In this document: one piece after another, positions 3,544-20,984 of the stretch
Layout of the letters: each line of letters opens with the position of its first letter
Position numbering within the stretch: the first letter of the stretch is position 1
Origin: Candidatus Kapaibacterium sp.
GTDB lineage: Bacteria > Bacteroidota > Ignavibacteria > Kapaibacteriales > UBA4661
Direction of reading: 5' to 3'
Length of the DNA: 43,524 nt
Assembly (NCBI GenBank): GCA_025358765.1
Contig: JANYIG010000134.1
Coordinates: 1 to 43,524 of the forward strand
Made by a program: the position numbers and the translations under genes
Notes under the pieces: model-generated
Database searches by the model: none
Told to the model about the DNA's origin: nothing
What the model saw: the letters and a program-made list of their open reading frames with translations, nothing else

Positions 3544-4767
3544 ATGAAAATATTGATTGTTGACGATTCAGATGATGTACGGTTAAGTCTGAGGCTTTTT
3601 CTGAAAAAATGGAATCACGAGGTTGTTGAAGCTATGGACGGCAAGGAAGGCTGGCAGATGCTGCAAGAAAACCAAGACATCAGTTTTGTGATTAGTGATT
3701 GGTCTATGCCGGAGATGACGGGCGTTGAGCTTTGTCAAGTAATCCGAAAGGCTGCTTTGGGGCGCTATATCTATATCATACTGCTTACAGCAAACACCGA
3801 AAAAGGGCAGGTTATTGAGGGCATAGAATCGGGCGCGGATGACTTTATCGGCAAGCCGTTCAATCAAAATGAACTGCGAGTACGTATTCACGCTGGAGAG
3901 CGGGTGCTTCAGTTGGAGCGCGAATTAGCGGAGCGCAATCAAACACTCGTTGAATACAATCGTAAGCTCGAAGAAGCATACGCTCAAATACGGATAGATT
4001 TGGAAGCTGCCGCCCGCCTCCAACGCCAACTCTTGCCGGATAGCGCCCGTGATAAGTTTGCAGGTGTCGGGTTCGATAGAATGTATATGCCGTCTGCGTT
4101 TGTGGCTGGGGATACGCTGAATTTTTTCCAACTTGACGAACACCACGTAGGGTTTTACATGATAGATGTGGCTGGACACGGTATTGCTTCTGCGCTCATG
4201 TCTATCACGACGCACAAAATCTTGACACCCGAATATTCTATTAGGGGGCGTGAGAATATTCTGAAGCATACCATTGAGCAATCACCCTACTACGAAATTC
4301 GTCCTCCAGCACAAGTAATTACCGAATTGAATGAAAGTTCGCAGCAAGAAAATGATGCCATGCAATATTTCACAATGGTGTATGCCGTTTTGAATACGCA
4401 GACTGGTGTGGTGACTATGAGCCAGGCAGGGCATCCGGCTCCAGTGCTTGTTCGCACAAATGGCGAGGTTGTGCAGATTGGCTCCGGTGGCTTTCCCGTC
4501 GGAATGTTACCCGGAATGGTCTATGAAGAGCTTACAGAAACACTTTATCAGGGCGATCGTTTATATCTTTATACGGATGGCATAACAGAATGTCCGAATC
4601 CCGGCGGAGAGCAGTTTTCAGAAGAACGTTTCGTCCGTTTATTGAGCGAAGAGCCGCAAATACCAATCGAACATGTATTAGAAAAAATCGAGAGCGCATT
4701 GATAGAATGGCGTGGTAGCACACAGTTTGATGACGATATTTCGTTGTTAGCCGTTGAAAAGCATTAA
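3544..4767 (+). CDS. Response regulator with PP2C/SpoIIE phosphatase output
   Basis: A 407-residue cytosolic protein. Residues 1-118 form a receiver domain with acidic pair D7/D8, phospho-acceptor D52, Thr in LLTAN and K104 (GKPF). A coiled-coil linker (about 118-165) leads to a SpoIIE/RsbU-type serine phosphatase, 170-407, with metal-binding Asp in AGD (190), DVAGHG (208), YTDGITE (345) and FDDDIS (387-389). Such proteins dephosphorylate STAS-domain anti-anti-sigma factors when the receiver is phosphorylated. A matching STAS protein (8535-10556) and HATPase kinase (8034-8486) lie on the other strand, so the three could form one partner-switching circuit. The first ATG-like codon is upstream at 3472, but 3544 begins exactly at the receiver (MKILIVDDSD) and follows GGGG, so I prefer it. 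The GT39-like gene follows after 27 bases. Confidence 0.93.
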   Translation: MKILIVDDSDDVRLSLRLFLKKWNHEVVEAMDGKEGWQMLQENQDISFVISDWSMPEMTGVELCQVIRKAALGRYIYIILLTANTEKGQVIEGIESGADDFIGKPFNQNELRVRIHAGERVLQLERELAERNQTLVEYNRKLEEAYAQIRIDLEAAARLQRQLLPDSARDKFAGVGFDRMYMPSAFVAGDTLNFFQLDEHHVGFYMIDVAGHGIASALMSITTHKILTPEYSIRGRENILKHTIEQSPYYEIRPPAQVITELNESSQQENDAMQYFTMVYAVLNTQTGVVTMSQAGHPAPVLVRTNGEVVQIGSGGFPVGMLPGMVYEELTETLYQGDRLYLYTDGITECPNPGGEQFSEERFVRLLSEEPQIPIEHVLEKIESALIEWRGSTQFDDDISLLAVEKH

Positions 4768-4794
4768 ATCATTCATTATGGAGAATTTATTACT

Positions 4795-6246
4795 GTGACA
4801 TCATTGCAATGGCGCTCAATTTCACCTCTTGTTCTGGCATCGTCAATAGTGGCGATGCTGGTCGTTATATGGTTGCGGGTGACACTTAATTTTAACACAC
4901 CGTATTTGGACGAGTGTGATTACCTTTTTGTTGGTAGATTATTGACTTCAGGGGTAGAGTGGAAAACGCAAACGTATATTTTCAGCTCAAATATTCCACT
5001 CTATATTTTTGGCGTGGCGGACAAACTTGGCGGATACCTCGCAGGACGGGCGTTTGCTATGGTCTTAGGTATATTCTCGCTTGTTAGTTTTTATCATGCC
5101 ATAAAACACTTGCTCAACGACCGCTCAACAGCCTTCATTGCTGTATTCCTTCTTAGTTTACAAGCACCGCATATTTTTATTAGCAAATTTGCTACATATG
5201 ACATTGTTTGTCTGACATTTTTCATGCCAGCGCTGTGGTGCTTGGCATTGGTACTTCGTGAAGATGGTCAGCGTCGGCTTTTGTATGTCGTACTTTGTGC
5301 CATATTGTGTTTTTTAGCAGTGATTTCCAAATATATTGCATTGGCATATTCACCTCTATTTTTTCTTGCGATTCTCTGGCGCGATCGCAAAGCAGCAGCA
5401 GTATTTTTCGGCGTTGGAGCAGGGTTGCTCGCTTCATATATCTGGTGGTATCGCGGTGATCTCATGTTGTTGTATCAAAATCAAATTCTGGGTGATCATC
5501 AGCCAAACTCTACGTATCTACAAATTATCGGAATTGTTCTTCAATATACAGCGCTGTTGGGTGTTTTAGCAATCGTCGGTGCGTCTGTGGTGCGGCATAA
5601 AGGGCTTTTGCCACAAGCTATCGGGTTGCTCGTGTGTGCGCTGCCATTACTGGTGTATCACATTAGAGGGCGTGATCTCGTGTCACTCAATAAACATGCC
5701 GTCTATGCCGTGATATTTCTTGTGCCGTTGGTTGCCGCATTTTTACGACAGTTGGTTTTTGAGCGTAAACAACATCGCTTTTCTCAAGGAGGAGTTATTC
5801 TTATTATTGCTGCGATGGTGGCATTATCATTGTATCAGGTACGGGAAATGGAGCGAAGTTATCCGAATACCACGAATATTACTAGCTATATACTACAACA
5901 CAGTACGCAGCAAACAAAAATTATGAGCGAGGATGAGTATTTGTTCCGTTATTATTGTTATCCCAAACTTGGTATTCCACAGATGTCAGAATTAACATGG
6001 TTCGACAATAATTTGGACGGAAAATTTGAGCGACAGGATGTAATAGATGGCATTTGGGACGGAAAATTTGATTACGTCTATATTAACGAACTCAGCGCAC
6101 CATTTGAATTACGGCATACATTGATAGAGGGCGTTTTGCCGCACAGTTACGAAAAAGTCTATGAAGAATCGTATGTAAACTCTGAGGTGATGAATCGTCA
6201 TAACGTGGGAAAGATGATACTCTACAAATTGAAAGCCAAGCCATAA
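4795..6246 (+). CDS. GT39/ArnT-like multi-pass glycosyltransferase
   Basis: A 483-residue inner-membrane protein with about ten hydrophobic segments and a hydrophilic C-terminal domain (about 365-483). The first extracytoplasmic loop carries an Asp-Glu pair in TPYLDECDYLFVG. In GT39/PMT and ArnT-type enzymes an acidic residue there acts in transfer from a polyprenyl-phosphate sugar. The fold therefore suggests a GT-C transferase that modifies a lipid, glycan or protein on the periplasmic face, with the donor unknown. The start is a GTG with GGAG 11 bases upstream. It sits 27 bases after the PP2C gene and 13 bases before the GH9 gene, so the three are probably co-transcribed. A small polyprenyl-type GT2 at 10579 could supply its lipid-linked sugar; that pairing is inference. 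Confidence 0.72.
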   Translation: MTSLQWRSISPLVLASSIVAMLVVIWLRVTLNFNTPYLDECDYLFVGRLLTSGVEWKTQTYIFSSNIPLYIFGVADKLGGYLAGRAFAMVLGIFSLVSFYHAIKHLLNDRSTAFIAVFLLSLQAPHIFISKFATYDIVCLTFFMPALWCLALVLREDGQRRLLYVVLCAILCFLAVISKYIALAYSPLFFLAILWRDRKAAAVFFGVGAGLLASYIWWYRGDLMLLYQNQILGDHQPNSTYLQIIGIVLQYTALLGVLAIVGASVVRHKGLLPQAIGLLVCALPLLVYHIRGRDLVSLNKHAVYAVIFLVPLVAAFLRQLVFERKQHRFSQGGVILIIAAMVALSLYQVREMERSYPNTTNITSYILQHSTQQTKIMSEDEYLFRYYCYPKLGIPQMSELTWFDNNLDGKFERQDVIDGIWDGKFDYVYINELSAPFELRHTLIEGVLPHSYEKVYEESYVNSEVMNRHNVGKMILYKLKAKP

Positions 6247-6259
6247 AAAGATAAAAGCT

Positions 6260-8020
6260 ATGAAGACACTGATTGGCATGGGTATTCTCGTGGTTGTGAG
6301 CTTTCTCGCTACATGTAGATGGTCACCCGAATTCCTTCGTCAACCACCGCCCGCCGATTCTATTCCCTATTTTCCATCACGCATCGTTGTCAATCAAATC
6401 GGATATTATCCCAATGCTCAAAAACGAGCGCTGTTCATTGGTTCCCAAACCCCGTCACCGATAGCGGAGATTATTGAACAATCCACCAAAACTGTTCTGC
6501 TGAAATGCTCGCTCTCAACGTTCGTGATAGACGGACAAAGCGGTGATACGCTACGTACGATAGATTTTACGGCACTTTCACACGAAGGAACCTACTTTCT
6601 CCGTGTCGGAAATGTGCAATCGTTCCCGTTTCGGGTTAGGCGCGATGTTTATACGCCAGCATTTGACCTTATGATGCGATCGTATTATCTCCAGCGATGC
6701 GGTGTTGTACTCAATGATAGCCTCACGGGTGTGCAGCATTCCGCATGTCATTTGGAGGACGGCTTTTTATTTCGTGCGGATAGCCTCAATCCCGCCTCAA
6801 GGCGTATTCAAGCAACGGGTGGTTGGCATGATGCGGGTGATTTCGGCAAATATGTCGTCACAACTGCCATTACCATTGGACGGCTACTCACGCTTTACGA
6901 AGTCCATCCTGACTTGTTTCACGACCATCTTCACATTCCTGAAAGTGGAAATCGTGTTCCCGATGTCCTAGACGAGGTGAAGATTGCGTTAGATTGGTTG
7001 CTCACCATGCAACGAAGTGACGGAGCAATATACCGAAAACTTTCTGGCATTGTTTGGACACCGCCGCTTGTGCCGCAGGCAGACACGCAAAAGCGCTATG
7101 TATTTGGCATCAGTACACCAGAAACCGCCAAATTTGCTGCTGCAATGGCACTCGCAGCTCGCACATACAAACGCACGAATCCACATTATGCGGGACGCTG
7201 CTTGCAAGCGGCGCTCAAGGCGTGGTCGTATCTGCAATATCATCCACAAATGGAGGTTGATTGGCAAACAAGTGATGATGCGGGTTCTGGGAAGTATTTA
7301 ATTTCCGAAGTTGACCAAGAGTACGAATTGACAATAGATACTGATGACCGATTCTGGGCAGCAACGGAGCTTTGGCTTACGACCCACAAGCCTGAGTACG
7401 ACAGCTTCCTGAGTCAAACGACAGATTCATTAGACTATACAATTTTTGAGTGGAAAACACCCGCATCGTTAGGTATGACGAATTATGTTCGCTGGGCAGC
7501 CGCACGAGGGCGGGATAATATTACGGCGAAAAAACTCAAACAAAAAATTCTCAACCGTGCAGAACGTGTGTTAAAGCGGGTCTTAGCGAGCGGCTATTAC
7601 TACGGCAACGATAGGATTGTGTGGGGGTCGAATCGGATGGCGGCGGAAGAGGGTATTGTACTAATGCAAGCATATAACTTGACACGCAAGCGAGAATATC
7701 TAAATGCAGCTCTTGACCAGCTTGATTTTCTGTTGGGACGTAATCATTTTAATCTCTGTTTTGTAAGCGGTGTGGGTGCTAATCCAGTACGACACATCTG
7801 CCATCTTTTCTCGCGGGCAAGCGGATTCTACGTTCCGGGGTTTCTTTCTGGTGGTGCAAACGAATTTGAACAAGCGAACATCGCACCAAAATTCAGAGGA
7901 TTACTGAGCTATGTGGACGACGAACGTTCGTATTCAAGCAATGAAAATGCGATTGATTACAATGCCTCAATGATTGCACTTATTGGGTTGGTGCGTGCCG
8001 AAATGGAGCGTGAACGTTGA
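6260..8020 (+). CDS. GH9 endoglucanase lipoprotein
   Basis: A 586-residue glycoside hydrolase family 9 enzyme, which cuts beta-1,4-glucans with inversion. The N-terminus has a lipobox (LATC, Cys19), so it is probably anchored in a membrane facing the periplasm or outside. Residues 40-128 are the CelD_N immunoglobulin-like domain (RIVVNQIGYYPNAQKRA). The catalytic (alpha/alpha)6 barrel, 133-580, carries the GGWHDAGDFGKY motif (D191 and D194, the base region), a His region near 512-515 (here RHICH rather than the common PHHR) and the acid E562 in SSNENAIDYN. It follows the GT39 gene closely. Opposite a cellulose-synthase-like operon, it more likely trims the cell's own glucan during synthesis, as BcsZ (GH8) does elsewhere, than digests food cellulose. 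That role is inference. Confidence 0.92.
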   Translation: MKTLIGMGILVVVSFLATCRWSPEFLRQPPPADSIPYFPSRIVVNQIGYYPNAQKRALFIGSQTPSPIAEIIEQSTKTVLLKCSLSTFVIDGQSGDTLRTIDFTALSHEGTYFLRVGNVQSFPFRVRRDVYTPAFDLMMRSYYLQRCGVVLNDSLTGVQHSACHLEDGFLFRADSLNPASRRIQATGGWHDAGDFGKYVVTTAITIGRLLTLYEVHPDLFHDHLHIPESGNRVPDVLDEVKIALDWLLTMQRSDGAIYRKLSGIVWTPPLVPQADTQKRYVFGISTPETAKFAAAMALAARTYKRTNPHYAGRCLQAALKAWSYLQYHPQMEVDWQTSDDAGSGKYLISEVDQEYELTIDTDDRFWAATELWLTTHKPEYDSFLSQTTDSLDYTIFEWKTPASLGMTNYVRWAAARGRDNITAKKLKQKILNRAERVLKRVLASGYYYGNDRIVWGSNRMAAEEGIVLMQAYNLTRKREYLNAALDQLDFLLGRNHFNLCFVSGVGANPVRHICHLFSRASGFYVPGFLSGGANEFEQANIAPKFRGLLSYVDDERSYSSNENAIDYNASMIALIGLVRAEMERER

Positions 8021-8033: not shown

Positions 8034-8486
8034 TTATTCAACTATAGTTTTGTTGTTATGAAGAAATTTGGTCAGCGTCAAAATATTTATGTTGTTCTCG
8101 TTGGTGATTTCGATTTTGTCCATAAGCTGTCCCATGATAAATAACCCCATACCACCTTCAGGTAGGTTATCAATATCGTTTGGGTCAAAATTAAATTGTG
8201 TCGGAAGGTTTATACCTTCGGGAAAAGAATAGCCACCATAGCGCATTGAGCAGGAAATTTCTTCGGCTGTCAAGGTTACGGTAACGGAAAACGTTTGTGT
8301 TTCGTCGTAACGATAGGCATGTTCGATGACGTTGTTGCACGCCTCGACAACGCAAAGCCCAATTTGATATGCTTCACCCTCCGAAACAATTGACCTACAA
8401 ATACCGTTCACAGCAGCGCCCACGAGCGAGACGTGTTCTAATGTGCTTGAGGCAGTTAATACGATATGCGGCGATGCTGCATTCAC
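8034..8486 (-). CDS. RsbW-like HATPase (anti-sigma/serine kinase family)
   Basis: A 150-residue HATPase_c_2 protein of the RsbW/SpoIIAB type. Members bind a partner such as a sigma factor, and phosphorylate the Ser of a STAS protein. The N box is present (E48, N51/N52 and H56 in VVEACNNVIEHAY), as is the glycine-rich lid motif (PEGGMGLFIM, about 109-118). The G1 box, normally Asp-x-Gly-x-x-Phe, reads RYGGYSF at 82-88 and has no Asp, the residue that contacts adenine. Nucleotide binding or kinase activity may therefore be weak or altered. It is the last gene of the long minus operon, 48 bases after the STAS-containing ORF, and faces the GH9 gene end to end. No sigma factor gene is visible in the window. 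Confidence 0.85.
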   Translation of the reverse strand: MNAASPHIVLTASSTLEHVSLVGAAVNGICRSIVSEGEAYQIGLCVVEACNNVIEHAYRYDETQTFSVTVTLTAEEISCSMRYGGYSFPEGINLPTQFNFDPNDIDNLPEGGMGLFIMGQLMDKIEITNENNINILTLTKFLHNNKTIVE

Positions 8487-8491
8487 AGGAA

Positions 8492-8506: not shown

Positions 8507-8534
8507 AGAATAGCGTAAGGAGAACGGTAAGGAA

Positions 8535-10556
8535 TTAGGTCAGTGCGGTTACCGCTTCCGTCGCAGTCGGAAAAATTCTGAAGACTCTGTCCATACGAGT
8601 CAAGCTAAACATCATCATTACATCGCTTTTCACGCCAGCAATCACGAGATCGCCTCGTCGTCCGAGTATCTTCAGACTCGTTACGATAGCTCCCAAGCCA
8701 CTACTGTCAATGAAATCTACGTTTGATAAATCTAATACTAAGAACCAATTATCGGCATTGATAAGTTCCGACATTTTCTCTTTAAATTGAATGGCGACTT
8801 TGGCATCAAGACGTTTATCTTGTACTTTAACGATACAGACTTTACCGGAAACGGTCGTTTCAAGGTTCATGATGATCTCCGAATAAAAACTTAAGAAGGG
8901 TGTGTGTTTATCTGTTTGATGTTCTGCGCGAAGTAAATCATTGACGGTTTTCACAGGATGAAACGTGCTTGATGGCACTTCCACAAATACGGTATTCCAC
9001 TCCGCCATGCTACCATTCCACAATCCTGGCAACTCAAGTGCTTTAAGCTCTTGCCCGTCCTTAGATTTCACCGAGATAAATCCGGTATTTTGATTTCGGT
9101 AGTGTAACAGATTGAAGGGTATGCCTTTATAGTTCCGTACACCACAAACGAGATCGACAGGGTTAAAATGCGTTGACTGTTCTAATATACGGTTTTGTTC
9201 TGATTTGTTCCTATCAATTTGTGCGGTTTCCACAATTTGGAGCGACGTTGTACCGTCGGATTCCCGCACAAAAAATGGTCCGCCACCCGGCTCACCTTCA
9301 TTTTTGACCATACCGCACACCCGCAACGGACGATTAAGTTTGACAAAGAGAAAATCTTGAAGCTCCTGCGGTGTGTATTCCTCTACAGTCTTATGAAGTT
9401 CAATATAGAGCCGCCAACGTGCAAAATCAAGAATTTCCTGAAGAACATTTTCCGAAACACTTCCGCTTTCCAAAACCCAGAGGTACTTAAAGACTGCATT
9501 TTGAAGCTCCACCAAATATCCGCATAAGAGCCGTTTAAAGCGATACGTTTCAGATTTGATGCGGTCAGGAACAACATTGTCAATGTTTTTGATGAATACA
9601 ATATCTGCCTGCAAATCGTTCAGATTCTCTAATAATGCGCCGTGTCCGGCAGGGCGGAAATGTAAGCCATCATCACTCAGAAATGGCTCATTTTCAGAGG
9701 TCACGGCTACGGTGTCTGTGGATTGTTTTTGCTGCGAGAAACGAATATCGAGCGTTGCTGTGGCGGCTTCGTTCCGACCACGCACTGTAGCTATATGGTA
9801 CTCAACCGCTTCCCGATGCTCCGGCGAAATCGTGAAATGCACACGGGCAATAGCCCCCCCGTGTTGTGTGCTTTGCTGCGTATCCTTTGTATATTCAAGG
9901 GCTTCAACAAGGTGTTCTTCAATAGGCGTACGAGTAAAATTTCCCGTAGCATCACTGTATGAATGGAACTCAATCAAACCTTTGGGTAAGTGTGCATAAT
10001 TCAAGCCCCGTTCCGTCAGCAAATACTCAAGAATCTTGGCGTATTTTCCCTCGGCCAAAAACACATATATATCGTAGCCATTAGCCTGCATGACGTGTTG
10101 TAGCGACGAAAAAAAAGCAAACTGATAAATATTCTGGAAAAACTTTACGCCGAAAATATCATCCGCATTTCCCTCGTTTGCGCCGAGTTGTAAAGTCGCT
10201 ATTGTCAGTTCTGGTCGTTCATTCAACGTAATCAAAGACTTAAACATTCGCGTAGCAGCACCAGAGGCAGGTACGAACTTCATTACCCGCCCAGCGGCAA
10301 TGGCCTTGGTACACAGCGAGAGTAAGCGAGATTCATCATTCGGTTGAATACGCTCAATGCCGTCACCCACCGTGCAGGCGCGGTCGAGCGTAATAAACGG
10401 CAGTCCTCGCTTAAACGTCAAAAACTGTCGGATAAGTTCTGCTTCCGAAACACCACTTCGCATTAGTTGTCTGAGAATACGCTCCGTCTGAACAAGGGCA
10501 TCCTCTCTGGATAGTGTTTTTGTCGTCATATTTTCAAGAACAGAAGTCTCACGCAT
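8535..10556 (-). CDS. DUF4301 protein fused to a C-terminal STAS domain
   Basis: A 673-residue ORF with two parts. Residues about 30-550 are DUF4301, a Bacteroidota-associated family of unknown function; visible conserved stretches are VPASGAATRMFKSL near 97-110, FRPAGHGALLENLN, GEPGGGPFFV and the TVNDLLRAEHQ end. Residues 563-673 are a complete STAS domain of SpoIIAA/RsbV type with phospho-acceptor Ser in DFIDSSGLGA (S618/S619). DUF4301 proteins normally end near residue 550, so the fusion looks like loss of a stop between two neighbouring genes. The STAS part begins with its own Met563 and a good ribosome-binding site (see 8868-8880), so free STAS protein may be made too. It lies 22 bases after the small GT2 and 48 before the RsbW-like partner. 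Confidence 0.88.
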   Translation of the reverse strand: MRETSVLENMTTKTLSREDALVQTERILRQLMRSGVSEAELIRQFLTFKRGLPFITLDRACTVGDGIERIQPNDESRLLSLCTKAIAAGRVMKFVPASGAATRMFKSLITLNERPELTIATLQLGANEGNADDIFGVKFFQNIYQFAFFSSLQHVMQANGYDIYVFLAEGKYAKILEYLLTERGLNYAHLPKGLIEFHSYSDATGNFTRTPIEEHLVEALEYTKDTQQSTQHGGAIARVHFTISPEHREAVEYHIATVRGRNEAATATLDIRFSQQKQSTDTVAVTSENEPFLSDDGLHFRPAGHGALLENLNDLQADIVFIKNIDNVVPDRIKSETYRFKRLLCGYLVELQNAVFKYLWVLESGSVSENVLQEILDFARWRLYIELHKTVEEYTPQELQDFLFVKLNRPLRVCGMVKNEGEPGGGPFFVRESDGTTSLQIVETAQIDRNKSEQNRILEQSTHFNPVDLVCGVRNYKGIPFNLLHYRNQNTGFISVKSKDGQELKALELPGLWNGSMAEWNTVFVEVPSSTFHPVKTVNDLLRAEHQTDKHTPFLSFYSEIIMNLETTVSGKVCIVKVQDKRLDAKVAIQFKEKMSELINADNWFLVLDLSNVDFIDSSGLGAIVTSLKILGRRGDLVIAGVKSDVMMMFSLTRMDRVFRIFPTATEAVTALT
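8868..8880 (-). promoter_or_regulatory. Internal ribosome-binding site and start for the STAS domain
   Basis: On the minus strand GGAG stands six bases before an in-frame ATG (GGAGATCATCATG). That ATG is residue 563 of the fused ORF and the natural first residue of a 111-residue anti-anti-sigma protein (8535-8870). This spacing is ideal, which supports independent translation of the STAS protein from the same message. Confidence 0.6.
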
Positions 10557-10578: not shown

Positions 10579-11349
10579 TCACGACCGTACGTTATCATTA
10601 GCTCGTTGACGGTGGCGAAGGTTCTTGTGTAAAAAACGAATTTTCAAAACATCTACGATCATCTGAAGCGCTGCTTTGAAGGGATTGACCGTTGAACCTT
10701 CTTGATGAACGTAATGGACGGGTATCTCTTTGATGCTGTAGCCGAGTTTGTCCGCCAGATAAAGCTGTTCTACGTCGAAACTGAAGCGGTACGTCTTTTG
10801 TAGGCGAGCTATCTCGTGAGCCGCTTCGTTGGTAAATGCTTTGAAGCCACATTGGGTATCTCTGATTCCTCGTACAGCAATCAACGATACAAATGTATTA
10901 AATCCCGTGCTCATAATTCTGCGATACAGTGGCTTATTTTTAACATCCGAATTGCCCACGCGTCGCGAACCAATCACAACATCAAACCCCTGTTCCAAAT
11001 ACGGAAAAAACGATTCGATATTATCCATAGGAGCAGCAAGATCGGCATCGGTAAACACAACAAACCTGCCATTTGCCTTGAGCATTCCGCGTGCAACAGA
11101 AAAACCTTTACCTACATTTTTGACGTTTTCAAGGATAACACTTACCTCTTGGCTTTTCATTTCATTGCTGTAAATGTCAATCGTCCGCACGACTTCCGTG
11201 GTCATATCAGTACTTCCGTCATCCACAACAATAACCTCGCTGCTATAGGATTGCTTTGACAAATAATCCTTCACAATGTAGAGCGTATCGGCAATGCGAG
11301 CTTGCTCGTTGTATGCGGGAATGACAACGGAAAGATAAACGGTATTCAT
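10579..11349 (-). CDS. GT2 glycosyltransferase, dolichyl/polyprenyl-phosphate type
   Basis: A 256-residue GT-A glycosyltransferase of the DPM1/ALG5-like branch, which moves a sugar from a nucleotide donor to polyprenyl phosphate at the cytosolic membrane face. Motifs in order: PAYNE, VVDDGSTD, the metal-binding FTDADLAAP, IGSRR, and DTQCGFKAF. It lacks the C-terminal membrane segments of the longer GtrB type. I start it at MNTVYLSVVIP (11349) rather than three codons upstream, because the family begins directly at this strand. It lies 22 bases before the DUF4301-STAS gene. A lipid-linked sugar product would suit the GT39-like membrane enzyme at 4795. Confidence 0.87.
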   Translation of the reverse strand: MNTVYLSVVIPAYNEQARIADTLYIVKDYLSKQSYSSEVIVVDDGSTDMTTEVVRTIDIYSNEMKSQEVSVILENVKNVGKGFSVARGMLKANGRFVVFTDADLAAPMDNIESFFPYLEQGFDVVIGSRRVGNSDVKNKPLYRRIMSTGFNTFVSLIAVRGIRDTQCGFKAFTNEAAHEIARLQKTYRFSFDVEQLYLADKLGYSIKEIPVHYVHQEGSTVNPFKAALQMIVDVLKIRFLHKNLRHRQRANDNVRS

Positions 11350-11451
11350 AATAAGCATCAGTTGGTCACAAACAATTGGTCAAAACCGACATTCTTGCAA
11401 ATTACACCATCTGGTCTGTAAACGGCACTATCGAAAAAATATAAAATAATG

Positions 11452-13345: not shown

Positions 13346-14739
13346 TCCCGCTTTGTTGGAAAACATTTATTGAAATTCTTAAATTCGTCGCGCAGATAAA
13401 TATTATAGAAATAGTCCGAATTGCCGATAGGTTGATAGATGCGACCGTTCTTCTTGAAATAAAGGCACTCCAAGATCATCGCATTAGTTGCCAGCGTAAT
13501 ACTGCGTTCTACCTCACCGCTTCGCTCTAACCGTGCCTCAAACCAGCCCCGTTCCGGGTCAAATAGTAGATTCACCACCATAATTAGCTTGTCGGTATAG
13601 GCAGTTTTCCAGAGAACCCACATTCCGAAGGCGGCTTTGACCGACACTGCCGAAAACTGAGGATAATACGTACCGTCTTCGGAACAGGTATTCCATTTGT
13701 TGCCATTAGAGAAAATTGCATCATGGATCAGGTACGGCTCTTCGGGCAGAATGCGGGTGGTACGGGCTGTGAAGATATCTTCGCGCTCGTAGCGTCGCTT
13801 TTGGACTTCATACACGGACTGCGCCTGAGTAACATAGCGCTTGTCGGTTGTAATATAGCCAACATTTTCCCAGCCAAATTCCATCCCGTCGAATAAAAAC
13901 GGCAGCGTCACAAGCGCATTGTTGCCGTTACTTTCACGTTCGTCGCCGCCATCGAACATCAAATCTATATCATACATACGGATAACATCTACAGGGTCGA
14001 GCGAGGATGATTTTTGGGTTGGGAAGCCCCATGCCTGAAAGCCGCGTGCAGCATACTCTTTCCAACCGAGCTTGCCGTCGGGGTAATGCTCAATGCGGTC
14101 GCCTACCCGTGTGCCACCATATAAATTTCCTAACGAATCAATAACGTTGCAGAAACTCCAACGCAGAACCGCCCGATCAATATATTCTCCATACTCGAAA
14201 TAACGGTCACGCACAATCCGTAGCGCAACCATCAACCGCCCGATGTCCATTGCTGACCAACCAAGTTCACCCTGTTGATTGGCATAATTACTCATCCATC
14301 CGTTGTTCGCGCTGTAATTAAGATTGGGCAATTCATTGTTAAAGAGCGGCATGTTATTGAGAAAGCTCAGAATAGCGCTCATTCTCCCATCAAACTCATG
14401 ACGGCTAATAATCTCAAAATCCCGTGCAGCAATCAACGCAAGAAGATAATCTCCGACGCTTGCCATAGTGGCGAGCTGAAAACCGTCTTTCACATTTATC
14501 AATCCAGTTTTGGGATGATAATTGTTCTCAAAGTACTTCCACGCCGTCTTTGCCCAGAACTGCTCTTCGGGGGTGAGTGTACCACGCCGGCCTTCTTTAA
14601 GCGAATTGCCGACGTTTTCAATTCCTTCACCCACAGAACGCACAACCACACCGCAACCACATACACACAGCACAAACACTATTGTGCTGGCTGTAAGAAC
14701 GACTGTCGTGTACGTGCAAAATGTGCGGAACTTGGGCAT
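13342..14739 (-). CDS. DUF3131 protein 1 (diverged copy, lipoprotein-like)
   Basis: A 465-residue exported protein, third of three tandem DUF3131 paralogs in transcription order. The N-terminus has a hydrophobic segment with VCGCG, a possible lipobox. The DUF3131 region, about 58-445, looks all-alpha and toroid-like: AKTAWKYFENNYHPKTGLIN, NELPNLNYS, GWSAMDIGRL, GWKEYAARGFQAWG, DGMEFGWE. The family has no settled activity, but its relatives sit beside glycan synthases. In copies 2 and 3 the segment before DG(I/L)E is VVSESY(V/I)L; here it is VTLPFLF, so a Glu shared by the other two is missing. The gene follows copy 2 by 16 bases and is translationally coupled to the GH16-like gene. Confidence 0.85.
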   Translation of the reverse strand: MPKFRTFCTYTTVVLTASTIVFVLCVCGCGVVVRSVGEGIENVGNSLKEGRRGTLTPEEQFWAKTAWKYFENNYHPKTGLINVKDGFQLATMASVGDYLLALIAARDFEIISRHEFDGRMSAILSFLNNMPLFNNELPNLNYSANNGWMSNYANQQGELGWSAMDIGRLMVALRIVRDRYFEYGEYIDRAVLRWSFCNVIDSLGNLYGGTRVGDRIEHYPDGKLGWKEYAARGFQAWGFPTQKSSSLDPVDVIRMYDIDLMFDGGDERESNGNNALVTLPFLFDGMEFGWENVGYITTDKRYVTQAQSVYEVQKRRYEREDIFTARTTRILPEEPYLIHDAIFSNGNKWNTCSEDGTYYPQFSAVSVKAAFGMWVLWKTAYTDKLIMVVNLLFDPERGWFEARLERSGEVERSITLATNAMILECLYFKKNGRIYQPIGNSDYFYNIYLRDEFKNFNKCFPTKRE

Positions 14740-14755
14740 TTCATTGTATCTCGTG

Positions 14756-16162
14756 CTACTTTTTTGCTTTTGGTGGTATTGCTTTGCTTATTTGACGTTG
14801 AAGAATAAAGCTCTCAGGTCGTACTTCACGCTCTTTGATGGCTTTGTCCCACTTGCTTTCTCGACCAGAGAACCGCAGCAATTTTCCTTTGACTTTGTAG
14901 AGCAGTACTTCAAGCATGATGCCGTTGTTATTCATTGTGAATGCTTTGATGGGCTGCTGAGATTTTTCGTAAATGCCTTCGTAGTAACCCACTTGTGGGT
15001 CGAATGCTTTACTAATGTACTCAAAAAGTTTATCAGTATATTTTGTGTCCCACAACACCCAAAGCCCAAGCGCTGCCTTGAGCGCAACGGCGGCAAACTC
15101 AGGTACGTATTTACCCGGCTCAGTGATAGTATTCCACGGATAGCCGTCGGTGAAGATTGCGTCATACACGAAATACGGATCTTTGTCGAGTTGGTGTTCC
15201 GTGCGAGCAGTCATGATGCCCGTTCGACGGAAACGCTCTTCTTGCACCTTGTAAATACGCTCGGCAAACTCAGCAATAACTGGGTCGGTGTGCTTCATAT
15301 CAGTAGAAACATCGTCTAATGCTGTATCCCAGTTCATTTCAATACCGTCAAGGACATAACTTTCTGAGACCACATAATTGTGTGCAGCAAGCACGCGCGG
15401 GTCGCGTTTGTCGTAGGGAATTTCTATGCCATAGATGCTCCGCGTATCGTATGGCTCGGGCTTGGCGGCGCGGCGTGTGTCGAATCCCCAAAGTTGGAAG
15501 CCTTTAGCGGAATATTCTTCGTAACCTAACCGACCCTCTTGAACATATTTCACCTGACCGCCTTCGCTAAATGCGCCATACATCTGTCCCGTGCTGTCAA
15601 TCACATTCTTGAAATTCCACCGTAAAACACATGAATCTATGCGGTCTGCGTGTTGTGGATGCCGTTCTTTAATAATTTTCGCCCAAATAAGAAACCGTGC
15701 CAAATCTATCGCCGAAAAACCAATCTCTCCCGGCTGATTAGCATAATTCACCTTTTCAAGCGTAATGGTGTTGTAACATTTATTCGGAAGTTCGTTCTGA
15801 AAAAGCTCAACTTTCGAGAATGAGTCAAAGAGTTTTGTGACACGCCCATCGAAGGTATTTTGATCAATAATACCAAGTTCCACCACTGCGACAAGTGCTC
15901 CTAAATATGCGGAAATATCCCACATTGTTGTGGAAGGATATTGGTCGCCAGCATTCACTAACCCTGTTTGGGGCTGATAATTCTTCTCAAAAAATTTCCA
16001 TGCCGTCCGTGCCATTTCCATCTCGCGGGCGCTCAACGCGCCATTTCTGCCCGGATGATTGCCATAATTGCTCTTGATTTGTCCAAATACGGGAACTGTC
16101 GTTTGAAGTACAAAACAAAACAGACTGAGAAGAAGTGGTGATATGTGGATATGTCGTTTCAT
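14756..16162 (-). CDS. DUF3131 protein 2
   Basis: A 468-residue secreted protein, second of the DUF3131 trio. The signal peptide (MKRHIHISPLLLSLFCF to PVFG) fixes the start at 16162; the longer frame to 16243 adds 27 residues without signal character. Conserved stretches are ARTAWKFFEKNYQP, GLVNAGDQYPSTTMWD, NELPNKCYNT, YANQPGEIGFSAIDLARF, GYEEYSAKGFQLWG and YVVSESYVLDGIEMNWD. It is closer to copy 3 than to copy 1. The C-terminus carries an extra basic tail of about 35 residues (ending IPPKAKK). It is separated from copy 3 by 224 bases that hold a repeat element, so it may also have its own promoter or weaker coupling. It probably acts on glycan in the periplasm or at the surface; the activity is unknown. 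Confidence 0.86.
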   Translation of the reverse strand: MKRHIHISPLLLSLFCFVLQTTVPVFGQIKSNYGNHPGRNGALSAREMEMARTAWKFFEKNYQPQTGLVNAGDQYPSTTMWDISAYLGALVAVVELGIIDQNTFDGRVTKLFDSFSKVELFQNELPNKCYNTITLEKVNYANQPGEIGFSAIDLARFLIWAKIIKERHPQHADRIDSCVLRWNFKNVIDSTGQMYGAFSEGGQVKYVQEGRLGYEEYSAKGFQLWGFDTRRAAKPEPYDTRSIYGIEIPYDKRDPRVLAAHNYVVSESYVLDGIEMNWDTALDDVSTDMKHTDPVIAEFAERIYKVQEERFRRTGIMTARTEHQLDKDPYFVYDAIFTDGYPWNTITEPGKYVPEFAAVALKAALGLWVLWDTKYTDKLFEYISKAFDPQVGYYEGIYEKSQQPIKAFTMNNNGIMLEVLLYKVKGKLLRFSGRESKWDKAIKEREVRPESFILQRQISKAIPPKAKK

Positions 16163-16258
16163 AGTGTTCCAGAAAGCTGTATAAGTGATATTATTGTAGT
16201 GTTTTGGACGTGCTATGCCTGGGTTTAGTACATCGTTCTGCAAATACAGAACTTTTTC

Positions 16259-16350: not shown

Positions 16351-16386
16351 AATCAAAAAAATACTATAGGTATTCAGTCACTGCAT

Positions 16387-17733
16387 TTAGTGTACAAGTT
16401 GAATATGTTTGCCAAATTTTTTGTAACACAGTGTTTCTAAAATGATAGCATTTGTATTGCCAGTGATAGCTTTATTTGGCTTACCCGTTGCTTCGTACAG
16501 CCCCGAGTACCAGCCACGCGCGGGGTCGTTGAGGGGTTTCACGGCATCTATCAGTTTTTGCGTGTACGGCGTTTGGTAGAGCGCGTACCAGCCAAATGCA
16601 GCTTTAGTGCTGATAGATCTAAACTGTGATACGTCCTCGCCTTTGTCCGTGATGCAACTCCACGCTTTGCCGGCGGTGAAGACAGTATTGTAAACGAAAT
16701 ACGGCGCTACGTCAATATTGTCTTCGCTTACCGCCGTCAGAACACCTGTTTTGTTGAAGCGTTCTTCTTGCACTTTATAGACACGAAAAGCAAACTCGCG
16801 GGAAATGGCATCAAAGCCAAATTCCAATCCGTCCAGAATATACGATTCACTTACGACATAATTAAATGCTTTGTAGCGGTCGGGCGTACGTTTATCCGTC
16901 GGAATGTTGATGCCGTAGATAGATTCGTAATGCAAAAAATCGTCATATTTTAATGCCTCAAACACGTCTGTTCCCATCAGGGAGAAGGATTTTGCGGCGT
17001 ATTCTTCGTAACCGATACGCCCTTCCTGCGTGTGAATCGTAGCATTGCTATCGTTCAACGTTGCCCCGTAAAGAATGCCATCACGCACAGCATGAGTGAA
17101 TGTAAAGCGTTGCAAAATCTCGCGTACAGCGGCAGCAAACTTCGGATGCTCCCACACAATAATATGCAACGGCACAAACAAACGCCCAACGTCAATCGCC
17201 GACCAGCCAATACCGCGTGGTGTCTTGTTGTTGGCGTAATCTGCCATTTCTTTTGTAAGCGTGTTGTAAGACTTATTCGGTAGTTCGTTGTCAAAAAGCG
17301 GGAGTGTGGCGAGCGCTTGCAATGCGGCTTTCAAGCGTTCATTCATCACGGATTCAGAAATAATCCCGAGTTTATGCGCTGACAACACCGCAAGCAAATA
17401 CGAACCAGTATCCCACATCGTCGAGGCGGGATAGTTATCCACAGAGTTCACCAACCCTGTTGCTGGCTGATAATTATTCTCGAAATATTTCCACGCAATC
17501 CGCGCAAACCCTTGTTCTTCCGTCGTGAGCGCCGTTGGCGCTATGGGCTGAACGGCGGCAGTGTGTTCGATAGTGAACGTTGCAGTTGCATTAGTAGCTG
17601 TACGTGATGCTGTACTACCTACTGCGCCAATATTCACACCTTCGAGCCAGACAATGAGCGCCAGTGCTGTTGCCAAGCCGAACAAAAAGATAATTCTGCT
17701 GCGGGCTGCTATAAGACCTTCGGTGAACGTCAT
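16387..17733 (-). CDS. DUF3131 protein 3
   Basis: A 448-residue protein, first of the DUF3131 trio in transcription order. An N-terminal hydrophobic segment (RIIFLFGLATALALIVWL) acts as a signal anchor, so the domain should face the periplasm. A Thr/Ala-rich linker leads to DUF3131 (about 75-445): ARIAWKYFENNYQPATGLVN, ASTMWDTGSYL, NELPNKSYNT, GIGWSAIDVGRLF, GYEEYAAKSFSLMG, YVVSESYILDGLEFGFD. I start at 17733 because AGGAGT stands five bases upstream of that ATG; the longer reading would put the start before this site. It follows the PIG-L gene by 31 bases. The anchor suggests it works close to the inner-membrane synthase. Confidence 0.87.
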   Translation of the reverse strand: MTFTEGLIAARSRIIFLFGLATALALIVWLEGVNIGAVGSTASRTATNATATFTIEHTAAVQPIAPTALTTEEQGFARIAWKYFENNYQPATGLVNSVDNYPASTMWDTGSYLLAVLSAHKLGIISESVMNERLKAALQALATLPLFDNELPNKSYNTLTKEMADYANNKTPRGIGWSAIDVGRLFVPLHIIVWEHPKFAAAVREILQRFTFTHAVRDGILYGATLNDSNATIHTQEGRIGYEEYAAKSFSLMGTDVFEALKYDDFLHYESIYGINIPTDKRTPDRYKAFNYVVSESYILDGLEFGFDAISREFAFRVYKVQEERFNKTGVLTAVSEDNIDVAPYFVYNTVFTAGKAWSCITDKGEDVSQFRSISTKAAFGWYALYQTPYTQKLIDAVKPLNDPARGWYSGLYEATGKPNKAITGNTNAIILETLCYKKFGKHIQLVH

Positions 17734-17764
17734 CGTGACTCCTAACATTCAAAAAATTATGGTT

Positions 17765-19114
17765 CTAAATATTTGCTGTGATTGCATGAAGGCTTTCCTC
17801 ACGGATGGTTACAGTATTGTTGTGAATACGATAATCCACAAGCACCTGATAACCAACACAATTACCGCGTGGCGGCAGAGCCATCATGCTACTTAATTGT
17901 TTGAGAAATTCTCTATTGGAAATAGCTTCAAAACAAGCAAGCGTACCGCCTCCATGAATGCCCATACATCCAATAATATACCGAGTTTGACGCATCGGAT
18001 TTACCATAATCGTCAAGATGCCAATGTCTTGTACGACGCTTCGTTCCCCGAACTCATCTTCTTCATAGACGGAGCGTGATTTCTGACCCGTCAAGCGGTC
18101 ATACACTACGATATCGCGGTAATCCGGCATGGTATAATCAATTACGTACCGAATGCCTTCAAAATGATTAAAATAATGCCGCGTCAAGCCGTTCGATGCA
18201 GCGCTTCCACTGAGGATAATATTCGAGTTCCAGAGCATTTTTTCGGCGTTCGCAGCATCGGAACGATAATTTTCTACGGGATTGCGGTCGCTCCACAACT
18301 GTGCGAACATCTGGAACAAACGTTGAATGCCCTCTTGTTCTTTATTCGCTGTGGAAACCCATTGCTCTTTGCGGCGCGGAACAGGTACGGAATGAATCAC
18401 AGTCAGCATTTGATTGCTGATGAGCGGATACCAGAAGTTGTGAAATGGGCAGTCGTTCAAACTTTGTACGAGAAAAAGCATGTCTTCGGCTCCTTCTTGT
18501 ACGGAAAGTTCAAAAGGTTCTGCTTCCTGCAACCCTAATGGCTCCGAATATGCTTTAATGCGGCGTTCGATGGCTCCGTAGTCAATACGCATTGCTTGGG
18601 TAGTGTGTGCTTGCAACGCTCGTATCTTCTGGTCATGGTACGGAATAGTTTCAATAAAAATTTTGGGCGAAAACTCAGATAGCATAAGTGAATTCACCAC
18701 CGCGTATGATAAAATCGGCTTTTTGCGGAATGTGGACATCGTGATTTCGTTTGCGGCACGATGGTCGTTATGGCTGTCCGCCTTCGTATGCGTGAATACG
18801 ATGTCTGGTTCGCAGTTACGTTCATGGAGGATTTTACGGAGTGTTCCCACTGTTTCTGCATTACATATTAAATCACCGTCAGGGAAACCCGAAAATATCA
18901 TCTGCTCTTCTACCACACCCAATGCTGCTGCCCCAGCAATGGCTTCAGTTTTGCGTTGTGCAGCAACATCCGTGTTGCGTTCATTCGTCAAAATACAAAT
19001 CCAAACATTCCAACCTGTTGCTGCCAAACGAGCAACTGTTCCGCCCGTGCCGATTTCAATATCGTCAGGATGACACGCAACAAATAACGCACATGGTAAA
19101 AAAGATGTCGTCAT
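17765..19114 (-). CDS. PIG-L family deacetylase with an extra C-terminal domain
   Basis: A 449-residue protein. Residues 1-215 are a PIG-L/LmbE zinc-dependent deacetylase, which removes acetyl groups from N-acetyl sugars. The metal site shows as CHPDD (H15, D17/D18) and HNDH (115-118). There is no signal peptide, so it works in the cytosol, for example on a sugar nucleotide or lipid-linked sugar. Residues about 285-449 form a separate domain with ILSGSAASNGLT (300-311), DIGIL (363-367), NP (372-373), GCMGIHGGGT (382-391) and a closing VDYRIHNNTV strand. I have seen this pattern in small sensor-like domains of unclear role but cannot assign a family. It lies between the GT2 synthase and the DUF3131 genes and may supply deacetylated precursors. 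Confidence 0.86.
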   Translation of the reverse strand: MTTSFLPCALFVACHPDDIEIGTGGTVARLAATGWNVWICILTNERNTDVAAQRKTEAIAGAAALGVVEEQMIFSGFPDGDLICNAETVGTLRKILHERNCEPDIVFTHTKADSHNDHRAANEITMSTFRKKPILSYAVVNSLMLSEFSPKIFIETIPYHDQKIRALQAHTTQAMRIDYGAIERRIKAYSEPLGLQEAEPFELSVQEGAEDMLFLVQSLNDCPFHNFWYPLISNQMLTVIHSVPVPRRKEQWVSTANKEQEGIQRLFQMFAQLWSDRNPVENYRSDAANAEKMLWNSNIILSGSAASNGLTRHYFNHFEGIRYVIDYTMPDYRDIVVYDRLTGQKSRSVYEEDEFGERSVVQDIGILTIMVNPMRQTRYIIGCMGIHGGGTLACFEAISNREFLKQLSSMMALPPRGNCVGYQVLVDYRIHNNTVTIREESLHAITANI

Positions 19115-19178
19115 AATTCTTGTGTAGAAATCGAGAATGGCTGGTTCACATTTTTTTTAATCTCATAATGCTTATATT

Positions 19179-20984
19179 TTACGCCGTTGTGTCCGCAGGC
19201 GGTTTCCAAAACGCAGCCGCCACAATGCCGCTCAATGCCGCAACGTTAATAGTTCCCCAAAACAAATTAGTTACGAAGCCACTGTAGTTATGAGCCTTCC
19301 CAAGTGCTATCATTACTCCGGTATAGATAAGCCCTGCAACGGTGAGTCCGATTATCACAAGCTGTGGGATAACCAACTCAATGAATGTGCCTTCCTGCCT
19401 ATCTTTCGGGGTGACGGGGAATTTGATTTTTTCACCGCGAGCCACCGTCCATAGCGCCCGCAGATTCACCGGAAAGAATGATAAATAGCTTGCCATACCC
19501 GCCCAGCCTGAGATTCCCCACATTCCCACCATAAATGCTAATTCGTTCAGCACAATAAATGGCAGAAAATGCTTCATAAACTCCGTCGTATCGCAGCTTA
19601 CGGGCGGAATGCCCGTGAACAGATAGATAATCGGCGCAATCAAAAACACTATATTCCATAATCCCGCAAAATACGAGTAGAACGTTGCCATGTACATTAG
19701 GCGTTGTGCCATCGTTAGGCGGTTTTTGCGGAAAATCGGATTGTCGTGAAAGAAAATATCTAACGAGCCTCCAGCGTACTTAAAACGCTGAACGGTCCAG
19801 CTTAACAGGTCTTGTGGCGACAGCATCTTTGATTCGACTTCGGGATGATGCACGGATTTCCACTGCCGATTTTCGTAGGAGTGCAGAATAATTGATGTGT
19901 AAATATCTTCCGAAACGTGAAATTTATATGGCGTTACTTCTGTTTCAAGCGCCAATTCACGGCGCACCGCATCGGACATATCACTCAGGATTTCTTCATC
20001 GTGAATATCTTTGGTCAAACGGCGTACTTCGCCGTCCACCGAATCTGCATACGTCTTCATTGCGGCTTCCATCACGGCTTCGCGCCGATGAATAGAACCT
20101 GCGCCGCAGCAAAACGACGCATTTGCCCAGTTGCGGCGGCGCTCGATAATGTCAAAAAAGAGCTTGGGGTCGTTGCAAAAACGATCTTGTCCGACCATGA
20201 CCGAACCCATCAAACGTTCAATAACAGCACCAAGAGCATACCCCGGATACGATAGATAGCGTTTGAAAACTTGTCGAAGGGGCGTTCCTTCCGTTAAATC
20301 GTAGAACCAATGCGGCGTTTGCACCCATGCTACGTCGGGGTCGCGGAAATACCCAAGTGTGTGTTCAAGAATCGTCGGGAAAGGGCGTGTATCGGCATCG
20401 CAAATAACAATAAAATCACCAGATGTCTGTTCCATAGCGTTTCGGAGGTTTCCGGCTTTGAATCCCATGTTGTTGTTGCGCGTGATGTAGCCTACACCCT
20501 CTTCTTCAGCAACGCGCTGCATTTCTGGACGTTTGCCGTCGTCCAGCACGAAAATTTTGAGATCTATTGGGTATGGATAGTGAATTTTTTTTGCGTCCAG
20601 AATGCTCAAGCGCACAAGGTCTGGGTCTTCGTTATAGGTAGGAAAGAATACATCAACTGCCACTGGGCGCTCTGTATGGACTGGTGTATGAGAGCACTCG
20701 TTGATGGTGCATGGCGGTGCTTGCTGCGGATAATCCGCGGTTTTCCAGAGATTGAACACAAAAATTGCCAAACCAATGAGCGAAAACGTTTCCGCCATTA
20801 CGAGCGGAATAGCGAACCAAAGAGCATCGTGATTGAGCGACGACATCCAACGCCAAACAACATACCACGCGCCAAATGCGAGTGCCATTGTTGCTAAAAA
20901 TTGCCAAAGCAATTCACGCGCAGCTGAGTATGGAAGCGGCGGTGGCGGCATACGATGTTCAAATTGCTCAAAATAATAACCCAT
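19179..20984 (-). CDS. Cellulose-synthase-like processive GT2
   Basis: A 601-residue inner-membrane glycan synthase. Two N-terminal membrane segments (about 26-47, 55-78) precede the GT-A core: FFPTYNED, VLDDGKRP (D148/D149) and ICDADTRPFP (D196, D198). The acceptor motif is SED (358-360) where BcsA has TED, and the Q-x-x-R-W motif reads QRFKY (399-403). Four to five C-terminal membrane segments follow (430-590). An insert of about 90 residues lies between the metal site and SED. There is no C-terminal PilZ domain and no bcsB neighbour, so it is not a standard cellulose synthase. The product is probably a beta-linked glycan, but the sugar is open. It is first in the ten-gene minus operon. The GH9 enzyme opposite favours a glucan; the PIG-L deacetylase would favour an amino sugar. 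Confidence 0.88.
   Translation of the reverse strand: MGYYFEQFEHRMPPPPLPYSAARELLWQFLATMALAFGAWYVVWRWMSSLNHDALWFAIPLVMAETFSLIGLAIFVFNLWKTADYPQQAPPCTINECSHTPVHTERPVAVDVFFPTYNEDPDLVRLSILDAKKIHYPYPIDLKIFVLDDGKRPEMQRVAEEEGVGYITRNNNMGFKAGNLRNAMEQTSGDFIVICDADTRPFPTILEHTLGYFRDPDVAWVQTPHWFYDLTEGTPLRQVFKRYLSYPGYALGAVIERLMGSVMVGQDRFCNDPKLFFDIIERRRNWANASFCCGAGSIHRREAVMEAAMKTYADSVDGEVRRLTKDIHDEEILSDMSDAVRRELALETEVTPYKFHVSEDIYTSIILHSYENRQWKSVHHPEVESKMLSPQDLLSWTVQRFKYAGGSLDIFFHDNPIFRKNRLTMAQRLMYMATFYSYFAGLWNIVFLIAPIIYLFTGIPPVSCDTTEFMKHFLPFIVLNELAFMVGMWGISGWAGMASYLSFFPVNLRALWTVARGEKIKFPVTPKDRQEGTFIELVIPQLVIIGLTVAGLIYTGVMIALGKAHNYSGFVTNLFWGTINVAALSGIVAAAFWKPPADTTA

Follow-up and report, generated by a model that had tools for sequence, protein, structure and literature searches.

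We report a locus in the genome of a Candidatus Kapaibacterium sp. that probably (at a rough estimate, two chances in three) encodes a synthase-dependent polysaccharide system in which DUF3131 proteins process the chain, a barrel exports it and a partner switch controls its production. This reading draws on domain content, motifs, predicted folds and conserved linkage. The window, that is the whole stretch of 43,524 nucleotides analysed, contains the following genes of the locus:

3544..4767, plus strand: response regulator with SpoIIE-type PP2C phosphatase, switch activator (Pfam Response_reg and SpoIIE; the frame opens at 3472, likely ATG at 3544)
4795..6246, plus strand: PMT/ArnT-like membrane glycosyltransferase, accessory (Pfam PMT, 6.6e-6)
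6260..8020, plus strand: GH9 hydrolase with CelD_N Ig domain, accessory (Pfam GH9, 2.5e-78)
8034..8486, minus strand: HATPase_c_2 anti-sigma-type serine kinase (Pfam, 2.1e-22; N-box E48/N52 kept)
8535..10556, minus strand: fusion of DUF4301 (UDPGP-like nucleotidyltransferase, residues 27-547) and STAS (residues 565-668) in one open reading frame (Pfam)
10579..11358, minus strand: small GT2, polyprenyl/dolichyl-phosphate hexose transferase-like, accessory (Pfam GT2, 3e-26; NCBIfam)
11452..12444, minus strand: WDPDF-repeat outer-membrane barrel with signal peptide and about 12 strands, predicted to serve as export pore (AlphaFold, Foldseek)
12491..13366, minus strand: relative of GH16 by tblastn to annotated GH16 proteins, lacks the catalytic ExDxxE motif and likely binds glycan
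13342..14739, minus strand: DUF3131 paralogue 3, probable lipoprotein (LCVCGC, from sequence; Pfam, 366 bits; orthogroup in 46 loci)
14756..16162, minus strand: DUF3131 paralogue 2, secreted, signal peptide (Pfam, 426 bits; the frame opens at 16243, likely ATG at 16162)
16387..17748, minus strand: DUF3131 paralogue 1, an (alpha/alpha)6 domain held in the inner membrane by helix 8-37 (AlphaFold, Foldseek; orthogroup in 78 loci)
17765..19114, minus strand: PIG-L-type N-deacetylase, not core (Pfam, 3.2e-23)
19179..20984, minus strand: BcsA-like processive GT2 without PilZ (motifs DxD, SED, QRFKY, FPVTPK)

The synthase and its conserved neighbours

The enzyme at 19179-20984 has a GT2 fold with DDG, DxD and ED motifs, and its membrane domain aligns with BcsA structures. 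BcsA is its nearest solved structure and CelA its nearest NCBIfam model; the score against TIGR03030 (BcsA/CelA) is 223 bits, under the equivalog cut-off of 699, against 24.5 bits for the NCBIfam model of MdoH, which falls short of an OpgH assignment. QxxRW and TED are absent, with QRFKY and SED instead, and the alignment of relatives retains QR[FY]KY in 87/88 and SED in 87/88. PilZ was found neither in this protein (Pfam scan) nor anywhere in the source genome. Judged by sequence, the synthase and its relatives form a distinct BcsA-like subfamily, marked by the lack of PilZ, SED for TED and QRFKY for QxxRW. Both SED and QRFKY deviate from the canonical processive GT2 motifs and were counted against our best explanation.

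Relatives were collected by a scan with this GT2 as the only query, which matched Kapaibacteria, Desulfobacterota and Alpha-, Beta- and Gammaproteobacteria, and 88 loci were compared. Loci with full flanks, spanning at least 21 kb, were treated as complete (n=61, of which 54 were fetched by the synthase alone). GT2, DUF3131, SpoIIE, STAS and HATPase are found together in all 61, and because every complete locus holds all five parts, their co-occurrence is not a matter of chance. This is the comparison across genomes that the sequence-only reading had proposed, with neighbours that are not conserved together as the refuting outcome; its central claim, that these genes form a synthase-dependent polysaccharide system not described before and equipped with its own partner switch, is supported by the result. 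More specifically, a SpoIIE gene is no further than 10.5 kb from the GT2 in 40/40 genomes (0.29 expected), compared to 0/13 for canonical BcsA in the same 40 genomes, and DUF3131 directly follows the GT2 in 76/83.

The gene set occurs across several phyla, on chromosomes as well as on Enterobacterales plasmids. Many carriers are filamentous, and a role as the sheath-maker of Thiothrix/Sphaerotilus was considered for that reason; this idea was dropped, as Photobacterium, Ferrimonas and Enterobacteriaceae also carry the set and a sheath paper names lthB, a GT8. Among the carriers, Photobacterium profundum (SS9; locus L055) is experimentally tractable.

DUF3131 proteins, barrel and accessory genes

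All three DUF3131 proteins expected between 13342 and 17748 are recovered by Pfam, at 366-491 bits. The AlphaFold model of paralogue 1 (pLDDT 92.7) matches GH144/GH162/GH189 in Foldseek with a best E of 3.7e-10, and the first 19 ranks all belong to characterised members of the clan or to GH144-like 'putative glucoamylases'. Profile comparison by hhalign matches DUF3131 to GH144 and to the GH189 domain of cyclic glucan synthase, over the N-terminal part only; in all, four routes lead to the GH144/GH189 tie. E239 of XcSGL lies within GYNEAM, whose DUF3131 counterpart is GYEEYA, a match at motif level. Glu occupies the general-acid column in 53/53 sequences of paralogue 2, 38/46 of paralogue 3 and 47/83 of paralogue 1 (replaced in 36/83). 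On these models, DUF3131 shares the fold of the beta-1,2-glucanase clan (GH144/162/189/192-194) and retains the clan's general-acid motif in part, a relation that is new here.

An earlier proposal from the letters was that DUF3131 and the WDPDF barrel replace BcsB/BcsC-type parts. Because fold and profile place DUF3131 among GH-like (alpha/alpha)6 proteins, it is more likely a glucan-processing enzyme than a BcsB substitute, and we lowered the standing of a BcsB-like scaffold. The barrel half of the proposal holds up better. The WDPDF protein, which has no Pfam match, can be aligned to 31 relatives (27-51% identity), and the AlphaFold modelling suggested earlier predicts a 12-strand barrel with moderate confidence (pLDDT 78.8) and a Foldseek match to FapF (1.3e-5; TM 0.38). 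The barrel is present in 54/88 loci. In a Paracoccus locus (L009) the WDPDF barrel is missing and a TPR+PgaA-barrel porin is present; in another locus (L038) a barrel frame matches DUF3131 weakly, at 21.6 bits. The model and the PgaA-type replacement in one locus support the WDPDF barrel as a probable outer-membrane pore.

Other genes vary. The PMT-like gene keeps its place in Kapaibacteria kin (L013, L014, L127), and relatives of the small GT2 occur in 19 loci. The expected GH9 enzyme is indeed present. The GH16-like protein is related to GH16 as thought, and is probably not catalytic because the ExDxxE motif is lost: the window reads ELAIR at this position, and four kin read DVAIQ, DIAIQ, MLALQ or ILAIQ. 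It was therefore rejected as the cognate hydrolase of the Kapaibacterium lineage. PIG-L is likewise present, and was rejected as a core deacetylase (of a chitosan-like polymer) since only 2/88 loci, the window and Nostoc, have it. The GH9, GH16 and GH2 helpers are as compatible with a beta-1,4 or beta-1,3 polymer as with a beta-1,2 one.

The partner switch and the proposed mechanism

Pfam confirms the phosphatase-STAS-HATPase set reported around the synthase. Two features had been missed, the fusion of STAS to DUF4301 and, from the alignment, a Tyr in the HATPase G1-box. The SpoIIE metal-site residues Asp232, Asp369 and Asp421/422 are kept in 78-79 of 79 sequences. STAS matches the SPOIIAA and TM1442 structures and carries the phospho-site motif DSSGLG (Ser618/619), with Ser618 kept in 83/84. 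In the HATPase alignment, Glu48 and Asn52 are present in 82/82 and the G1-box Asp in 80/82; the window has Tyr83 in place of this usual ATP-site residue, so the kinase step may be altered in the source genome. Many relatives' loci also encode a histidine kinase with H-NOX, globin or Hpt. The linkage argues strongly that the switch controls polysaccharide production.

The DUF4301-STAS single frame is seen only in the window. Kin have separate genes and STAS frames exceed 160 aa in just 5/84, and the fusion was rejected as a common feature. In relatives, STAS and HATPase often flank a pyrophosphorylase (in 21 loci they flank a nucleotidyltransferase), and in the window the UDPGP-like DUF4301 is fused to STAS; nucleotidyltransferase and DUF4301 never co-occur in one locus.

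Reading polymer type, linkage, enzyme direction and switch target from these observations, we propose the following course. The inner-membrane GT2 would polymerise and extrude a linear glycan, with a glucan built from UDP-glucose as the most likely product. In the periplasm, the chain would meet between one and three DUF3131 proteins, of which one sits in the inner membrane and the rest are secreted proteins or lipoproteins; as kin of the beta-1,2-glucanase/glucanotransferase clan, these may cut or re-join the chain, and the WDPDF barrel would conduct it across the outer membrane. Variable helpers (GH2, GH9, GH16 and OpgC; in the window PMT, GT2 and PIG-L) may trim or decorate the polymer. The histidine kinase would feed the response-regulator/SpoIIE phosphatase, which would dephosphorylate STAS; free STAS would turn the pathway on and the HATPase kinase would turn it off. 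Precursor supply is the preferred target because STAS lies next to an NDP-sugar pyrophosphorylase-like enzyme or forms one protein with it. Besides the SED and QRFKY motifs, several observations weigh against the scheme: the helpers point to no single linkage, the general-acid match is confined to motif level, the HATPase of the source genome has lost its G1-box Asp, the DUF4301-STAS fusion is particular to the window, and the barrel model is of moderate quality.

A bolder version of this scheme is tentative and somewhat doubtful: a distinct glycan-secretion class in which DUF3131 is a new GH/transglycosylase family acting on the nascent chain, and the switch acts on enzymes through STAS held by or fused to an NDP-sugar pyrophosphorylase, replacing c-di-GMP and a sigma factor.

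We regard as unlikely that the locus is a variant cellulose or mixed-linkage beta-glucan system, with the GT2 making beta-1,4 (or 1,3/1,4) glucan, GH9 in the role of BcsZ and DUF3131 as a non-catalytic periplasmic scaffold standing in for BcsB. The closeness of the GT2 to BcsA and CelA, GH9 in 24/88 loci and GH16 in 15, and a membrane-anchored DUF3131 paralogue 1 directly after the GT2 all fit such a system; however, the CelA score lies under the cut-off, QRFKY and SED are nearly universal, canonical BcsA is additionally present in 9/40 genomes, and DUF3131 has the predicted fold of a glycoside hydrolase with near-invariant acidic residues. The beta-1,2-glucanase fold group of DUF3131 would suit a second pathway like that of osmoregulated periplasmic glucans, in which the GT2 makes a beta-1,2-glucan that stays mainly periplasmic, DUF3131 stands for OpgG/OpgD and OpgC succinylates the product. 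OpgC/acyltransferase genes in 33/88 loci, with the OpgC_C domain found in relatives, agree with this, as does, indirectly, a salt-shock network module of four DUF3131 genes in Shewanella piezotolerans (PMC8371737). Yet the GT2 is BcsA-like with its low MdoH score, an outer-membrane barrel, which OPG systems do not need, is present in 48/61 complete loci, and the window has no OpgC; this pathway too appears improbable.

It is quite unlikely that the switch acts on a sigma factor, or on some other target of cell-wide reach, and only happens to travel alongside the polysaccharide genes. HATPase/STAS/PP2C sets control Bacillus sigma factors, switch targets are commonly unknown (PMC8256260), and the source genome has 14 SpoIIE genes. 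Against this, no sigma factor is annotated in five loci (L005, L006, L007, L009, L010), the locus SpoIIE is the only strong one in 28/40 genomes, and the switch genes accompany the synthase from phylum to phylum and also on plasmids.

Comparison with known systems

The layout had been flagged as possibly known already, and a similar set is indeed listed as accessory 'block 3b' of Klebsiella pneumoniae, tied to the PC1 ecocline: a cellulose-synthase-like gene, three DUF3131, OpgC, a hybrid kinase and an anti-sigma factor with its antagonist (PMC12974863). The likeness is by gene list alone, and that paper gives no function, fold or mechanism. Our full-text literature search, whose coverage leaves out most subscription journals and preprints, found no earlier functional description of the set beyond this list, and no biochemistry or mutants for any member. 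The locus suggests a possible product for a block tied to Klebsiella population structure, and for DUF3131, a family of unknown function that appears in just three papers of the library searched, the analysis offers a predicted fold, a probable type of reaction and a candidate catalytic residue.

Like Pga/PNAG, the locus pairs a GT2 synthase with a barrel pore, of the TPR+PgaA type in Paracoccus; in contrast, no PgaB is seen, regulation differs and the window's PIG-L is not core. With cyclic glucan synthase and Opg systems it shares OpgC in many relatives and the GH189/GH144 fold of DUF3131, but unlike OpgH or GT84 synthases, its synthase is BcsA-like and DUF3131 stands as a protein of its own, either secreted or anchored in the membrane.

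Known controls of synthase-dependent polysaccharides are few and c-di-GMP is dominant, and here such a synthase travels with a phosphatase/STAS/kinase switch. The syp locus is of the Wzy type. PP2C/kinase/STAS control of polysaccharide output is described for SypE/SypA of Vibrio fischeri and HmpUVW of Nostoc punctiforme (PMC8256260); those switches govern other polysaccharide loci, whereas here the switch lies inside a synthase-dependent locus. The closest parallel in overall plan is Bcs (BcsA/BcsB/BcsC/BcsZ), with a BcsA-type GT2, a periplasmic partner, a hydrolase and an outer-membrane exit. The present locus differs from it in having no PilZ/c-di-GMP input, in the SED and QRFKY motifs, in DUF3131 and a 12-strand barrel where Bcs has BcsB and BcsC, and in its partner switch.

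Gene layout in the window

The window corresponds to contig C326 in a genome of 4.86 Mb, and at 3544-20984 two divergent gene groups adjoin each other. All parts named by the sequence-only reading, which had proposed a possible polysaccharide system with a built-in partner switch, are present according to Pfam and NCBIfam.

Gene groups of the polysaccharide locus (Pfam/NCBIfam; barrel from the predicted model)
3544-8020, + strand: RR/SpoIIE phosphatase, PMT-like protein, GH9 enzyme
8034-20984, - strand: HATPase, DUF4301-STAS fusion, small GT2, barrel, GH16-like protein, three DUF3131 proteins, PIG-L, synthase

These genes are flanked by an argH-like gene (1989-3323) and by M20 deacylase, argB-like and argF-like genes within 21136-28275, a flank that also holds a hybrid histidine kinase (22209-26432); they look as if inserted into an arginine cluster. 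Further along, TonB-dependent receptor, imelysin-like and di-haem (DUF1111-like) proteins stand in a row at 36501-41741, a probable iron-uptake set as read from the sequence.

Conservation and linkage of the gene set

We scanned 84,980 species genomes using the synthase as sole query. The closest named relatives of the synthase are found in Candidatus Kapaibacterium and Ignavibacteria MAGs (70-73% identity). A set of 88 loci (the window, 80 from the scan and seven on plasmids), many of them cut by contig ends, was annotated with profiles built for the purpose. DUF3131 was found in 86 of these loci, SpoIIE in 79, STAS in 81 and HATPase in 81; all four are present in every one of the 61 loci that span 21 kb or more, 54 of which were retrieved by the synthase query only. 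The neighbours are conserved together in complete loci of relatives, the point on which the sequence-only reading had made its proposal depend, and its observation is confirmed and extended.

Linkage is shown by comparison across genomes. SpoIIE lies at most 10.5 kb from the synthase in 40/40 genomes, against an expectation of 0.29 computed from SpoIIE gene number and genome size, and is the sole strong SpoIIE in 28 of them; none of the 13 canonical BcsA genes in the same genomes has a SpoIIE nearby. Because SpoIIE is abundant in the window's genome (14 genes), linkage there proves little by itself, and the cross-genome comparison carries the proof.

Strong DUF3131 matches are almost restricted to these loci: two to four copies occur in 25 of 26 carriers, mostly on the same stretch, and among 296 genomes of the phylum such matches occur solely in the window's family. 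The synthase is rare and patchy, being present in 4/395 genomes of the phylum, all of the window's own family, and in 2/321 Gammaproteobacteria, seed included. Together with carriage of the gene set on plasmids of Pantoea, Salmonella, Chimaeribacter, Vibrio and Rhodobacterales, this distribution fits spread by transfer. In the Salmonella Rubislaw IncF plasmid (L010), the entire locus lies on a plasmid typed as conjugative. In Pantoea stewartii plasmid pDSJ10 (L006), an IS66 element separates the STAS/HATPase genes from the SpoIIE gene and OpgC is in two ORFs, so that the system there looks broken.

Synthase, predicted pore and DUF3131 proteins

The 601-aa GT2 synthase can be aligned with the solved BcsA structures 7lby and 4hg6, yet scores 223 bits with the CelA model against a cut-off of 699. 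A domain search detected no PilZ in the synthase or in the window's whole genome, which also has no canonical CelA. In 87 of 88 relatives SED replaces TED, and likewise QR[FY]KY replaces QxxRW (87/88); the Nostoc GT2 (L008), just 34-39% identical to the other synthases, keeps QRLRW. When nine canonical BcsA proteins were placed in a tree with the synthases, 84 members fell into a single group apart from BcsA, with modest support (0.79).

The WDPDF protein is predicted to form a 12-strand barrel, whose top structural match, at a low TM-score, is the amyloid-secretion pore FapF. The Paracoccus locus (L009), in which the WDPDF profile detects no barrel, encodes a protein that combines TPRs and a PgaA barrel domain. 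The GH16-like protein keeps the fold relationship assigned to it earlier, but the ExDxxE motif, retained in proteobacterial members, is lost in Kapaibacteria. Frequent helpers among the 88 loci are GH2 (43), OpgC/acyltransferase (33), pyrophosphorylase (30) and GH9 (24); PIG-L occurs only in the window and Nostoc loci. In L004, L060 and further Vibrionaceae loci, a gene adjoining the barrel gene encodes a large Ca-binding protein with RTX-type repeats, which may serve as an adhesin or matrix protein.

The outline of the sequence-only reading was right, except that it took DUF3131 for a scaffold replacing BcsB. The AlphaFold model of DUF3131 (pLDDT 92.7) matches only members of the beta-1,2-glucanase group (GH144, GH162, GH189 and newer SGL families) at ranks 1-19, and DUF3131 is now a probable glucan-processing enzyme. 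It matches 8rf9 at 1.4e-4 and, by hhalign, 24 GH144-type proteins at 85% and 7e-6, with the N-terminal part covered. The Pfam DUF3131 model matches GH144-type proteins weakly, and in 2900-aa proteins a weak match stands alongside one to the GH144 model. The portions consulted of two papers on the beta-1,2-glucanase clan (PMC12102758, PMC10834661) make no mention of DUF3131; they give E239 as the general acid of XcSGL, which appears as Gln, in GYNQAM, in chain 8xul. The candidate counterpart of this motif in DUF3131, by motif match, is GYEEYA at 246-251. Glu249 is kept in 53/53 proteins of paralogue group 2, 38/46 of group 3 and 47/83 of group 1; on these counts, the most promising candidate for an active enzyme is group 2, and some members of group 1 may lack catalysis. 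We infer a glucan product, together with its linkage type and export. The single GH144-type gene of the window's genome (L129, G000:C297:34956-35666) is distant from the locus.

Probable partner switch and relation to described systems

The switch residues are strongly conserved: STAS Ser618, in DSSGLG, in 83/84, HATPase Glu48/Asn52 in 82/82 and the SpoIIE metal residues in 78-79/79. The window HATPase (8034-8486) has Tyr83 where the G1-box Asp stands in 80/82 relatives, a substitution that may leave its kinase step inactive, weakened or altered. Sensors differ between loci (H-NOX with kinase, globin with hybrid kinase, GAF, Hpt), and no sigma factor is annotated at the five annotated loci.

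In 21 loci a nucleotidyltransferase separates STAS from HATPase; in Kapaibacteria and Desulfoluna the same operons carry DUF4301, and nucleotidyltransferase and DUF4301 are never together in one locus. DUF4301 matches UDPGP weakly in Pfam (6e-4) and, on direct reading of the sequence, retains a GxxTR-like signature in PASGAATRMFK. It forms a single ORF with STAS in the window, and the two are separate genes 160 nt apart in L012, 52 nt apart in L016 and farther apart in L013. This placement beside STAS hints that the switch would target precursor supply. Glycogen/starch phosphorylase-like genes near the switch genes of five loci (L018, L020, L022, L026, L042) and a phosphoglucose isomerase-like gene in L080, likewise read directly, fit glucose-1-phosphate supply.

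Within the limits of the library searched, no description of this gene set as a system was found in the literature. The layout itself, as the sequence-only reading had allowed for, is already in databases, and a Klebsiella paper lists it with no function given (PMC12974863).
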